Source: Reyranella soli
GTDB lineage: Bacteria; Pseudomonadota; Alphaproteobacteria; Reyranellales; Reyranellaceae
Reading direction: 5' to 3'
DNA length: 64,000 nucleotides
NCBI RefSeq assembly: GCF_007992495.1
Contig: NZ_BKAJ01000012.1
Coordinates: 1 to 64,000, forward strand
The notes below the pieces were generated by a model. It was not told the DNA's origin and did not search any database. It saw nothing but the letters and a program-made list of their open reading frames with translations. Below are positions 1-42,388 of the stretch, one piece after another. Position 1 is the stretch's first letter, and every line of letters begins with the position of its first letter. Both the position numbers and the translations under genes were made by a program.

Positions 1-35
1 TGCGCAGGATGCGCGCGGTCCGGAAGAGGATGACA

Positions 36-33039: not shown

Positions 33040-33595
33040 CGCGAGGTTTGCCCTCGGGCTTGAGCAGCGGCCGCACGGCCCGTTCGGCGCAGCGCAGCAG
33101 CCAGTCGCCGAGCCGCGTGTCGCCTGAGGCGCGGGCGAGGGCGACGGCACCAACCGCCAGGATCACGGCCACCGTGGCATCGCCGTCGAGCTTGCGCTTC
33201 TTCGCGCCGGCCAGCTCGGCGATCGCGGCGTAGAGCAGGTTGGCGTAGGCGAGGCGCGCCGGCAGCGGTGCGCGGGCGATGTCGGAGGGCAGGGCGGCCA
33301 GCACGCAGGTGGGCGCGCTCGCGACCAGCTCGGCCTTGTCGAGATAGGCCTTCAGCACCGCGGCGGGCGCCGCGCCGCGCAGCCGCGCCCGCAGGCCGGT
33401 CCCGGCAATCACCGCCTCGGTGAAGAGATCGTCCTTCGAGTTGAAATGGGCATAGAAAGCGCCGCGCGTCAGCCCCGCCGCCAGCATGACGTCGTCGATG
33501 TTGGTGCCGGCATAGCCGCGCAGACGGAACAGCCGGCCGGCATGATCGAGAATTTCGGCGCGGGTGCGGGCAGTTCGGGCGGGGTTTTGAGGCAT
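32894..33595 (-). CDS. TetR family transcriptional regulator with basic C-terminal tail
   Basis: A 233-residue TetR regulator. The N-terminal HTH reads TNIDDVMLAAGLTRGAFYAHF at about residues 30-50, followed by a helical ligand domain. The last 48 residues, almost all Arg, Lys, Ala and Ser, are encoded by bases that overlap the 3' end of mfd on the other strand, so the tail may be a by-product of read-through. The ATG at 33595 lies inside a 43-bp nested palindrome, which is probably its own operator. A longer in-frame start at 33631 would lie within that palindrome too. Confidence 0.85.
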   Translation of the reverse strand: MPQNPARTARTRAEILDHAGRLFRLRGYAGTNIDDVMLAAGLTRGAFYAHFNSKDDLFTEAVIAGTGLRARLRGAAPAAVLKAYLDKAELVASAPTCVLAALPSDIARAPLPARLAYANLLYAAIAELAGAKKRKLDGDATVAVILAVGAVALARASGDTRLGDWLLRCAERAVRPLLKPEGKPRVKRRASPKRKQSKSRRKAAGARRSRRAARSRGGRGAAAPKARSSAARR

Positions 33596-33636
33596 GATAT
33601 GTTTACTAACATATCGTATGTTATTAAACATATCAT
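33594..33636. promoter_or_regulatory. 43-bp nested palindrome over the TetR start (probable operator)
   Basis: Outer arms ATGATATGTTTA / TAAACATATCAT and inner arms TAACATA / TATGTTA share one centre at 33615; 19 of 21 arm pairs match. The sequence is strongly AT-rich in a GC-rich genome and covers the TetR start codon. It resembles two overlapping or stacked TetR-type sites, consistent with cooperative autorepression. It also contains the only promoter-like sequence upstream of TetR. Confidence 0.75.
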
Positions 33637-33650
33637 TAGGCCATAGTCAT

Positions 33651-33716
33651 GCCGGACCGCGGGCCTCCAGGCCCGCTCATGATTCATGAGGCGGGCCTGG
33701 AGGTCCGTGGTCCGGC
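33651..33716. repeat. 66-bp imperfect inverted repeat (REP-like), dsbA/TetR gap
   Basis: Arms beginning GCCGGACC and ending GGTCCGGC enclose two smaller hairpins (CCTCCAGGCCCG and its partner) around a CTCATGATTCATGAG centre. There are two G/T-type mismatches and one extra base. It lies just past the dsbA-like stop and before the TetR operator, where it can terminate the upstream transcript. It shares unit sequence (TCCGGACCGCG, GCCTCC, CTCATGA) with the palindrome at 40683-40750. Confidence 0.75.
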
Positions 33717-33726
33717 AAGAGAAGAC

Positions 33727-36400: not shown

Positions 36401-37168
36401 ATGTCCAAGCGATTCGACCTGACGGGCAAGGTTGCCCTGGTCACCGGCGCATCGTCGGGACTCGGTGTGCACTTCGCGCGCACGCTTGCCGCCGCAGGTG
36501 CGTCGGTTGCCATTGCTGCACGGCGCGCCGATCGACTGGCCTCTCTGCAGGCGGAATTGCAGAAGCTTGGCGGCAAAGCCGTCGCCGTCGAGCTCGACGT
36601 GCAATCGAGTGACTCGATCACCGCGGCGTTTGCAACGGTGGAAGCGGCGCTGGGGCCCGTCGACATCGTGGTCAACAACGCCGGCATCTCGATCGTCAAG
36701 CCGGCGCTGGAGATGCCGGTCGAGGACTGGGACGCCGTGGTCAACACCAACCTGCGCGGTGCCTGGCTGGTGGCGCAGGCGGCCGGCAAGCGCTGGCTGA
36801 TGGCCAAGCGGCCCGGCGTGATCGTCAACATCGCTTCGATCCTGGGCCTGCGCACGATCGGGCAGGTGGCGCCTTACAACGCCTCGAAGGCGGGCCTGAT
36901 CCATCTCACCCGTGCGCTCGCCATGGAATGGGCGCGGCACGACATCCGGGTGAACGCGATCTGCCCGGGCTACATCGAGACCGAGATGAACAGCGACTTC
37001 TGGAAGACGCCCGCCGGTCAGCGCCTGATCGACCGCATCCCGCAGCGCCGCATCGGCAAGCCCGAGCATCTCGACGGCGCGCTGCTGCTGCTGTCGTCGG
37101 ACGCTGGAAGTTTCATGACCGGCAGTGTGCTGACGGTGGATGGCGGCCACACCGTGAGTTCGCTCTGA
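36401..37168 (+). CDS. SDR family oxidoreductase
   Basis: A 255-residue classical SDR with TGASSGLG at 15-22, NNAG at 92-95, Ser146, Tyr159 and Lys163 (YNASK). The C-terminal GSVLTVDGGH is the family signature. It is closest in pattern to gluconate 5-dehydrogenase and 3-oxoacyl-reductase-like enzymes. It is divergent from the previous SDR and convergent with the D-threonine-aldolase-like gene, whose stop directly abuts its own. Substrate unknown. Confidence 0.92.
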   Translation: MSKRFDLTGKVALVTGASSGLGVHFARTLAAAGASVAIAARRADRLASLQAELQKLGGKAVAVELDVQSSDSITAAFATVEAALGPVDIVVNNAGISIVKPALEMPVEDWDAVVNTNLRGAWLVAQAAGKRWLMAKRPGVIVNIASILGLRTIGQVAPYNASKAGLIHLTRALAMEWARHDIRVNAICPGYIETEMNSDFWKTPAGQRLIDRIPQRRIGKPEHLDGALLLLSSDAGSFMTGSVLTVDGGHTVSSL

Positions 37169-39954: not shown

Positions 39955-39958
39955 GCCG

Positions 39959-40681
39959 ATGGCATCGACGACGCTCCAGTATCGCGATGGCGATGTCAGC
40001 TTGAAAGGCGTGCTGGTCGGAAGCGAGATGCGAACGGCCGGTCCGGCGATCGTGCTGTTCCCCGATGCGCGCGGCGTCGGCGCCCATGCGATCGAATGCG
40101 CGGGGCGGCTGGCCGGGCTCGGCTATCCGACGCTGGTCGCCGACCTCTATGGCGAAGGCCTGCTGGCGCGCGATATGACCCAGGCCGGCGAGCTGATGCG
40201 CGGCCTGCGCGCCGACGTCGACCGCTGGCGGGCGAGGGCACGGGCGGCCCTTGAGGCATTGTCACTACAGGATGGCGTCGATCGCTCCAGGCTGGCAGCG
40301 CTCGGCTACTGCTTCGGCGGCAGCACAGCGCTCGAACTGGCACGCAGCGGCGCCCCGCTGGCCGCCGTCGTGAGCTTCCACAGTGGTCTCGCAAGCCCGC
40401 GGCCCTCCGACGCGGCCAACATCAAGGCCAAGGTGCTCGTCTGTCACGGTGCGGCCGATCCTCTCGTGTCGCCGGCCGAGGTCGCGGCCTTCAAGGAGGA
40501 GATGGGCCGCACCAAGGTCGATTGGCAGCTCCACACTTACGGCGGAGCCGTGCATGCCTTCACCAATCCCGAGGCCGACAACGGCGGCATTCCGGCATTC
40601 GCCTACAACGAGGCAGCGGACCGGCGCTCGTGGACTGCCATGCTCGCTCTGCTGCGGGAAGCGTTCGCATCTGGCTCATGA
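39959..40681 (+). CDS. Dienelactone hydrolase family protein
   Basis: A 240-residue alpha/beta hydrolase with the DLH triad: Cys118 in GYCFGG, Asp167 (HGAADPL) and His199 (AVHAFTNP). DLH opens lactone rings in aromatic catabolism; many relatives act on other esters. It is probably co-transcribed with the enolase-superfamily gene. Its stop lies two bases before a perfect 68-bp palindrome separating it from the convergent TPP-enzyme gene. Confidence 0.93.
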   Translation: MASTTLQYRDGDVSLKGVLVGSEMRTAGPAIVLFPDARGVGAHAIECAGRLAGLGYPTLVADLYGEGLLARDMTQAGELMRGLRADVDRWRARARAALEALSLQDGVDRSRLAALGYCFGGSTALELARSGAPLAAVVSFHSGLASPRPSDAANIKAKVLVCHGAADPLVSPAEVAAFKEEMGRTKVDWQLHTYGGAVHAFTNPEADNGGIPAFAYNEAADRRSWTAMLALLREAFASGS

Positions 40682-40682
40682 T

Positions 40683-40750
40683 TCTTCCGGACCGCGAGCC
40701 TCCGGCTCGCTCATGATCATGAGCGAGCCGGAGGCTCGCGGTCCGGAAGA
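40683..40750. repeat. Perfect 68-bp palindrome between convergent genes (REP-like doublet, bidirectional terminator)
   Basis: Every base from 40683 to 40716 pairs with 40750 to 40717, with no mismatch or spacer. Each half contains its own hairpin (GCGAGCC-TCC-GGCTCGC), so the element is two REP-like units head to head around TCATGATCA. It fills almost exactly the gap between the DLH stop (ending 40681) and the TPP-enzyme stop (40751). It can end transcripts from both sides. Related copies are at 33651-33716 and, as a single unit, 61338-61367. Confidence 0.9.
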
Positions 40751-42388
40751 CTATGACTTGGCCGGCCGGTTCCGTGGCACCTGCACGATCGACCACGGAT
40801 CCGGCAGTTCGCCGACCGGGCAGTCGATCAGCACCGGGCCGCCGCGGGCGATGCCGCGCGAGATGGCCGTGCTCAGCTCCTCGGGCGACTTCACGCGCTC
40901 GGCGTGCAGGCCGAAGCTTTCGCCCAGCTTGACGAAGTCGGGATTGCGCAGGTCGCTGGCGATGGTGCGGTTGTTGAACGACTGCTGCTGGATGCGCTTG
41001 ACGTTCCCGTAGGCGCCGTCGCTGAACACGACCGCGACCACGCCGATGCCATGCTGTGCCGCCGTCGCCATCTCCATCGCGGTGAACATGAAGCCGCCGT
41101 CGCCGTTGATCGACACGACCGGCGTGTCGGGCCTGGCGACCTTGACGCCAAGCGACGTGGCGTAGCCCCAGCCCAGCGTGCCCTGGTAGCCGGTCGACAG
41201 GAAGGTGCGCGGCTTGTAGGTCGGCCAGGCGAGACGCGCGACGTAGCCCATCTGCGTCAGCTCATCGACCAGGATGCCGTCCTCGGGTAACGCCTTGCGG
41301 ATGGCCTCGAGATAGGCGACCTGCGGCGCGAGCTTGTCGCGCACTGCCTTGTTGGCGCGTCCCTTGATCTCGGCCACGTGCTCGGCCCGGCCGTTGGGCT
41401 TGGACGCGTGCTCGCCGAGTCTGTCGGCCAGCGCCTTCATGGTCGCCGCGGCGTCACCGATGATGCCGATCTCCGGCCGCCGCTGGCGGTCGAGCTCCTC
41501 GCCGTCGATATCGACGCGGATGATCTTGAGCTTGTCGTCGAGGCCCCAGTTCTGCTGCTGCGGCTGTAGACGCGTGCCGACGGCCAGGACCACGTCGGCC
41601 TCGCCCCAGAACAGGTAGCCAGCGGGCATGGTGACCGACAGTCGATGGCGGCCGTCGATCACGCCCTGGCCCATGCGCCCGGTCATGACGGGCGCATCCA
41701 GCATCTCGGCGATGCGCGCGATGTGCTCGCCCGCGTCCAGGGCGCCGCCGCCGACCACGATCATCGGGTTCTGGGCGCTGCCCAAAAGCTTGGCGGCACG
41801 CTCGACCGCGTCCTCGTCGACAGGGCAGGGGTCCGCGTTGGCCGGCGTCGAGATCAGCTCGACCGGCGCCTTGCGCGCCCAGGTGTCCATCGCGCATTCC
41901 AGCGCCACCGGGCGCCTCCGCCCGGACAGCAGCCGACGGAAGGCTTCGTTGACCAGGCCGGGCGCGGCGGCGGGCGAGGTGATGCGGTCGGCCCACTTGG
42001 TGAGGCCGCGCATGATCGCGAGCTGGTCGGGCAATTCGTGCAGCAGGCCGAGATTGCGGCCGATCATCGCCTGCTGGATCTGGCCGGTCAGCGCCAGCAC
42101 CGGCGCGTTCGCCGCATACGCCGTCGAGAGCGCCGCCGTGGTGTTGAGGAAGCCGGGGCCGGGCACGACGACGTAGGCCGACGGCGATCCCGTTGCCATG
42201 GCGTAGCCCAACGCCATGTACGCGCAGGCCTGCTCGTGGCGCGCATGGATCGGCTTGATGGCGTTGGTGCGGTCGTACAGGGCGTCGAAGAACGGATCGT
42301 TCTGCACGCCGGGCAGACAGAAGATCGTGTCGATGCCGTTCACTTCGAGCATCGACACGACGGCTTGGGCGGTCGTCAGTGTGGTCAT
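40751..42388 (-). CDS. Thiamine pyrophosphate-dependent enzyme (acetolactate synthase-like)
   Basis: A 545-residue TPP enzyme with the three-domain order of the POX/AHAS family. The N-terminal catalytic glutamate is Glu52 (HARHEQACAYMALGYA), and the C-terminal TPP-Mg motif begins GDGGFMFT and ends with the YGN region (DGAYGNVKR). It may decarboxylate a 2-oxo acid or ligate carbons. It lacks the clear signatures of true acetolactate synthase, and no regulatory subunit is nearby. It is convergent with the DLH gene across the palindrome. Confidence 0.9.
   Translation of the reverse strand: MTTLTTAQAVVSMLEVNGIDTIFCLPGVQNDPFFDALYDRTNAIKPIHARHEQACAYMALGYAMATGSPSAYVVVPGPGFLNTTAALSTAYAANAPVLALTGQIQQAMIGRNLGLLHELPDQLAIMRGLTKWADRITSPAAAPGLVNEAFRRLLSGRRRPVALECAMDTWARKAPVELISTPANADPCPVDEDAVERAAKLLGSAQNPMIVVGGGALDAGEHIARIAEMLDAPVMTGRMGQGVIDGRHRLSVTMPAGYLFWGEADVVLAVGTRLQPQQQNWGLDDKLKIIRVDIDGEELDRQRRPEIGIIGDAAATMKALADRLGEHASKPNGRAEHVAEIKGRANKAVRDKLAPQVAYLEAIRKALPEDGILVDELTQMGYVARLAWPTYKPRTFLSTGYQGTLGWGYATSLGVKVARPDTPVVSINGDGGFMFTAMEMATAAQHGIGVVAVVFSDGAYGNVKRIQQQSFNNRTIASDLRNPDFVKLGESFGLHAERVKSPEELSTAISRGIARGGPVLIDCPVGELPDPWSIVQVPRNRPAKS

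Follow-up and report, generated by a model that had tools for sequence, protein, structure and literature searches.

The closest described systems to the repeat reported here are families of palindromic units linked to RAYT transposases. In the REPINs of Pseudomonas fluorescens SBW25, as presented in the available part of PMC3116915, an inverted pair of REP-like units forms one hairpin that is extragenic, present in high copy, RAYT-linked and non-autonomous. TIRtrons carry a RAYT-like gene (TIRYT) between terminal inverted repeats that are unrelated to GTAG REPs and in some cases self-complementary, along with dispersed single and dimeric copies (PMC3733652, in the part available), and 20 of 26 described TIRYTs fall in subclass 2.1 with an HTH extension according to the accessible text of PMC6006769. 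REPtrons with the E. coli TnpA-REP (4er8) combine an HUH/Y1 protein with palindromes on both sides, as far as the accessible text of PMC8266576 goes. Near-spacerless inverted dimers are known from O. terrae, where GTAG-17 and GTAG-19 form dimers with spacers of 1-2 bp (available part of PMC3733652).

Here we analyse a window (the whole stretch of DNA studied, 64,000 nucleotides) from Reyranella soli, in which a perfect 68-bp palindrome lies between two converging genes. Based on sequence comparison, we propose that it is very probably a non-autonomous element of the REPIN/TIRtron type, i.e. the paired inverted ends of a RAYT-type (Y1, HUH single-strand) transposon with no transposase gene between them. 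The element shares the layouts just named and differs from each system in detail. The Reyranella doublets mostly have a spacer of 0-1 nt and lack the GTAG head of the SBW25 REPINs as given in that source, and among the genomes sampled their sequence family is nearly confined to the genus. Both transposases of the R. soli genome match Pfam Y1_Tnp only, and the C-terminal HTH domain of TIRYT subclass 2.1 is not present. The units have no GTAG guide motif of the kind reported for REPtrons in the accessible text, and sequence similarity to TnpA-REP is weak (E 0.0034), while the O. terrae dimers are GTAG-tagged and belong to another organism and another sequence. We found no published description of the palindrome family in the open-access papers searched, and the genus name Reyranella is absent from the main text of PMC12306157; the family is best read as a new one of a kind already known, RAYT-linked REPIN-like doublets. 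The features of the window are the following.

40683..40750, no strand: REPIN-like doublet of two 34-nt units, a perfect palindrome (sequence and family comparison).
40683..40716, + strand: left unit, TCTTCCGGACC-hairpin-TCATGA (family-model score 44.4 bits).
40717..40750, - strand: right unit, in inverse orientation (family-model score 44.8 bits).
40694..40710, + strand: hairpin of the left unit, GCGAGCC-TCC-GGCTCGC (core-repeat search, fold).
40723..40739, - strand: hairpin of the right unit (core-repeat search, fold).
40676..40681, + strand: TCATGA motif of the left border, set off from the unit by one base and containing the hydrolase TGA at 40679-40681 (border consensus TCATGn).
40751..40756, - strand: right border CTATGA, a form of nCATGA, in which positions 40751-40753 make up the stop of the - strand gene (border comparison).
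39959..40681, + strand: gene of the dienelactone hydrolase family, converging from the left (Pfam PF01738, E 3.4e-43).
40751..42388, - strand: thiamine-pyrophosphate (TPP) enzyme, acetolactate synthase-like, converging from the right (Pfam PF02775/PF02776/PF00205).
33652..33720, no strand: second doublet of the palindrome family, more diverged, GCGGGCCTCCAGGCCCGC subtype (family model, synteny).
3..27, - strand: partial unit at the window start; the relative G013 carries a complete doublet at the corresponding position (family model, synteny).
37162..37166, no strand: empty site; G013 has a 145-nt composite repeat that includes a doublet (synteny).

Sequence inspection and a repeat finder, the latter with 35-nt arms that overlap at the palindrome centre, give 34 + 34 paired positions, zero mismatches and no spacer: the left half reads TCTTCCGGACC-GCGAGCCTCCGGCTCGC-TCATGA, and its exact reverse complement follows directly. 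The first-pass annotation, made from the letters of the window, had described the site in the same terms, and the sequence is exact. Such a palindrome is far beyond chance, with ~9e-15 expected at the composition of the window, a longest spacerless arm of 11 in 20 mononucleotide shuffles, and no other spacerless palindrome with arms of at least 9 in the 64 kb. Its statements that each half is itself a hairpin and that one stop lies two bases away and the other in contact are borne out as well. A 7-bp stem with a 3-nt loop is found in both halves; the hydrolase gene stops with TGA at 40679-40681, the palindrome beginning two positions further on, and the stop of the TPP enzyme gene at 40751-40753 touches it.

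The palindrome is one of many copies. A DNA search with it gives 83 matching alignments (both strands) in the R. soli genome at ~40 scored places, taken from 323 first-look candidates, and the total number of copies may be higher. A 15-nt core occurs 51 times in this genome, often as opposite-strand pairs ~30 nt apart, and the perfect centre GCTCATGA-(0-1)-TCATGAGC occurs 39 times, with zero hits for the reversed control in either case. The same centre is present in 1 to 71 copies in 10 of 24 other genomes of the genus and in none of 16 genomes from other genera, and BLAST with the palindrome finds matches in 17 of the 24 and in 1 of the 16, the latter being a single match with E 3.4e-4. Scanning named genome contigs for the head-to-head pattern yields 73 stretches, picked because they bear doublets and with 49 of them coming from one assembly. 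Going by title, these records belong to Reyranella, Enhydrobacter and Rhodospirillales MAGs, apart from a few MAGs labelled Asaia, Rhizobium, Alphaproteobacteria or Proteobacteria. Over all the loci scanned there are 149 doublets (spacer of 1 nt in 85, 0 in 48). This recurrence in named genome records lays to rest the earlier worry that the palindrome could be an assembly or copy error. A mirror error at a contig end is scarcely credible as its source: some family copies do sit at contig ends, where such repeats break assemblies, but the window copy is internal to the 64-kb stretch with different genes on either side, and the structure recurs across many independent records. We note that core repeats are found less than 30 bases from contig starts in the R. 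soli assembly (C4:14, C6:17 and C299:14), so assemblies of these genomes are probably interrupted by the palindromes.

Comparison of 39 R. soli copies, 18 of them aligned with the window copy, defines the family unit as TCTTCCGGACC-hairpin-TCATGA, 34 nt in length, with a 7-bp hairpin between fixed flanks. The consensus has GGACC and TCATGA at the feet of the hairpin, and the GTAG/CGTC tetranucleotide of canonical REPs is absent. The stem varies with compensating changes (GCGAGC/GCTCGC, GCGCGC/GCGCGC and GCGGGC/GCCCGC). Immediately outside the doublets the bases read TCATGn (T 0.79, C 0.80, A 0.65, T 0.83, G 0.56 over 117 distinct doublets whose units both score at least 28 bits), with no comparable conservation beyond this motif out to 20 nt in the same 117. 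As TCATGn stands on both sides of many copies, with no target-site duplication definable, it may belong either to the element or to the target. Gene ends coincide with the element borders because TCATGA reads TGA on both strands. The palindrome had been described as fitted between two stops, and the stops are indeed placed so; the fit is not one of chance, since borders of the TCATG type carry the stop codons.

The arms of the doublets tend to match. In the assembly JACPOB, identical hairpins are found in both arms of 35 of 51 parsed doublets against 14.6 expected (0/5000 shuffles). Its two commonest subtypes hardly ever occur together in one doublet (one pair at most by the counts given). The JACPOB loci were pattern-selected with a pattern that itself fixes part of both arms, and 8 of 59 doublets are unparsed. 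Identical arms are weakly enriched in R. soli, at 8 of 26 parsed doublets versus 4.4 expected (150/5000 shuffles as high; 13 of 39 doublets unparsed), and the mean number of arm mismatches is 3.69 versus 4.07 after shuffling (105/2000 shuffles as low). A cross-species set of 77 doublets was left out of this comparison for mixing species. The identity of the arms may be maintained by some form of copying or correction, and homogenisation of inverted-repeat arms through template switching is described in the accessible part of PMC8604942. Arm matching above chance, as seen in JACPOB, is also what template switching would give had the palindrome arisen as a one-off, through inverted copying of one REP unit at a fork or through fusion of two units. 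Such a local origin is very unlikely, given that doublets arranged head to head around one and the same centre are found at dozens of unrelated loci and in 11 genomes, that heterotypic doublets with unlike arms exist, and that the scan yielding 149 doublets contains no tail-to-tail unit pair. The earlier proposal of a head-to-head joining of two REP units describes the form correctly, as the units are REP-like, identical and inverted, and fails as a local joining accident because the family is dispersed.

The same units surround transposase genes. Pfam Y1_Tnp (PF01797) is found above cut-off at two places in the R. soli genome and in nine of the 15 further genomes of the genus that were searched; it is undetected in G002, G004 and G006 despite their palindrome-family matches, and G012 has Y1_Tnp and no BLAST match to the palindrome. 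We examined 12 Y1_Tnp loci with a unit model threshold of >12 bits, leaving out the match in G003. Inverted units lie on both sides of the gene in seven (L171 of the R. soli genome, L174, L175, L177, L180, L181 and L182), one unit only is seen in two (L172, where it is weak, and L178, which reaches a contig end), and no unit above the threshold is seen in three (L173, L176 and L183). In six of the seven bracketed loci the units are 550-563 bp apart, oriented as in the doublet, and the RAYT frame starts within a unit or soon after its TCATGA-like end (close in most of the six). The R. soli RAYT copy bracketed by units is on contig C275. All six RAYT-like proteins examined contain NHVH and YVE-NP motifs, i.e. 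the HUH motif and Y---NP that define Class 2 TnpA-REP proteins. For the two R. soli transposases the best NCBIfam model is REP_Tyr_transpos, with 65 and 75 bits (below the cut-off of 80), and the sole PDB sequence match of the L171 protein is TnpA-REP 4er8 at E 0.0034.

Because its unit sequence and order match those of the bracketed RAYT loci, the doublet corresponds to the transposon minus the gene: unit-gene-unit spans ~600-640 bp in the transposon, unit-unit mostly 68-69 bp in the doublet. An origin by a missing interior would rest on unit identity and orientation, and the doublet itself is likely the mobile unit. This same match to both transposon ends, in unit sequence and orientation, speaks against the local copying across a replication fork that the first-pass annotation had offered. 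Taken as REPINs, the copies show an inverted pair of hairpin units, high copy number, extragenic position and a cognate RAYT flanked by its own units; taken as TIRtrons/TIRYTs, they show a RAYT-like gene between non-GTAG terminal inverted repeats, with dispersed copies. Dispersed inverted ends with little inside are also the layout of a classic MITE, and the units could in that case be the ends of a DDE-type insertion sequence and not of a RAYT element. We consider this highly improbable: no target duplication is seen, and among nine inverted unit pairs 20-3000 bp apart in the loci scanned, six enclose a Y1 transposase, albeit in loci chosen for the Y1 gene, the remaining three being 23-64 bp apart.

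Doublets favour converging gene ends. Using gene calls from a codon model seeded on GC3, which recovers both palindrome-flanking genes with the right ends, we place 86 distinct doublets from 80 loci as 50 convergent, 26 co-directional, 3 divergent and 7 at locus edges; none of the 79 classifiable doublets lies inside a gene. Gaps of 1-1000 nt without a doublet number 45 convergent, 278 co-directional and 113 divergent, so that the convergent preference amounts to 50/79 doublets versus 45/436 other gaps (Fisher p 4e-23), in a sample selected for doublets in which 49 of 73 pattern loci derive from one assembly. Of the 126 3' gene ends next to doublets, 28 are at -3 to 6 nt from a unit and 111 at -3 to 45 nt. 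According to the available text of PMC3733652, GTAG and CGTC REPs show a similar gene-end bias, and some GTAG REPs supply stop codons.

In many copies a second REP-like unit, GGAGCGCGGACCTCCAGGTCCGCTCATG, brackets the doublet, resulting in a four-hairpin composite (L011, L017, L022, L023, L025 and G013 C41). The GGAGCGCGGACCTCCAGGTCCGCTCATG hairpin is present within 40 nt on one or both sides of 31 of 117 doublets; in a stricter scan, four inverted GGAGCGCGGACCTCCAGGTCCGCTCATG pairs enclose a doublet, two do not, and none has an empty centre. The doublet may be nested by insertion into this repeat or may form a single larger composite with it. Beside the second doublet of the window, at 33590-33640, there is an A+T-rich imperfect palindromic stretch of the CATATC/GATATG type (window GC 67%), partly present in G004, which is a possible operator.

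Relatives differ in whether the palindrome is present, even with TPP enzymes that are 96-97% identical. At the orthologous site of G013 this enzyme is 97% identical and the convergent neighbour is kept, the palindrome is absent, and the hydrolase ends one codon earlier with other bases there; a third repeat type with a smaller hairpin fills the site (G013 C41). This third type, CCTCCCC-AGC..GCT-GGGGAGG, is seen at gene ends with TCAT/ATGA-like borders (G013 C41 and L147). In G004 a unit resembling GGAGCGCGGACCTCCAGGTCCGCTCATG lies at the end of the TPP enzyme gene. The hydrolase gene is missing between its neighbours (window 39955-40762) in G009 and G004, hence the gene content of this convergent junction has not stayed constant in the genus. 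Conversely, the 145-nt composite with a doublet in G013 C41 occupies a site matching window 37162/37166, where the window is clean and empty. Two doublet sites on the R. soli contig C100 have no doublet in G004, which has other sequence at one and a lone unit resembling GGAGCGCGGACCTCCAGGTCCGCTCATG at the second. Judging from these differences in presence or absence, doublets would come and go between close relatives or undergo precise loss.

These comparisons also bear on a host role. The palindrome could chiefly be a host regulatory device, i.e. a bidirectional terminator or a 3' RNA-protecting hairpin that is selected between converging genes whatever its origin, a reading that we regard as possible, if doubtful. 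It is in agreement with the enrichment between converging genes, with the RNA fold of the palindrome region (-77.1 kcal/mol, z -12.8) and with the presence of other hairpin repeats at the palindrome's gene end in relatives. However, no intrinsic terminator site is found in 40500-40950 and no T-run follows the palindrome hairpin, presence differs among relatives with near-identical enzymes, the position bias is explicable by loss of insertions elsewhere, and the units around transposase genes would be left unexplained. An Rfam search of the window finds a single tRNA and nothing else. Termination or RNA protection at gene ends by the doublet is a function that we only infer.

By the standards of SbcCD-dependent inviability in E. 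coli, 68 bp is a short palindrome. The first-pass annotation had argued that perfect palindromes of this length are normally unstable because SbcCD cuts their cruciforms, an argument with little force here since SbcCD is undetected in the R. soli genome. With the SbcD profile TIGR00619 at its curated cut-off (8 of 14 of a control set over it), only G024 scores over the cut-off among the 41 genomes searched, leaving R. soli and 23 of 24 other same-genus genomes below it. SbcC (TIGR00618) has no match in the R. soli genome, whose assembly is given as 97% complete, such that a missed SbcCD gene is possible. In G024, SbcD is adjoined by two strong SbcC pieces (C53:29219-34106), and this sole same-genus genome with SbcD over cut-off has no palindrome-family copy. 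That contrast carries no weight, because 13 of the 23 other same-genus genomes without an SbcD over the cut-off are also without a perfect centre; missing SbcCD is an attractive but unestablished reason for palindrome tolerance. Distant sbcD-like matches (E ~1e-12 to 1e-15) are found in G002, G008, G016 and G024, and G002 does have perfect centres.

For the REPIN/TIRtron-type element, we envisage the following mechanism. A RAYT supplied from elsewhere in the genome, such as the unit-bracketed copy on C275, would recognise the unit hairpin in single-stranded DNA and would cut and paste the doublet, with the full 68-bp hairpin as the copied or transposed form. Pairing of the arms would then allow repair or template switching to keep them identical. 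Survival would be favoured behind genes, where the element would be harmless and where its hairpin, as RNA, may stop readthrough or shield 3' ends. A more far-reaching version, which we consider rather unlikely as a whole, is that in a lineage missing SbcCD a RAYT family settled on a mobile form that is a perfect palindrome with no spacer, that hairpin-templated correction keeps its arms identical, and that the doublets colonise converging gene ends, supply both stop codons and act as a gene boundary.

In conclusion, these data add a sizeable RAYT-linked repeat family for a little-studied alphaproteobacterial genus, in which transposon and doublet of one family are directly comparable in layout. 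With its near-perfect arms and undetected SbcCD, the family represents a convenient natural case for the limits on palindromes in bacteria and for arm matching in REPINs.
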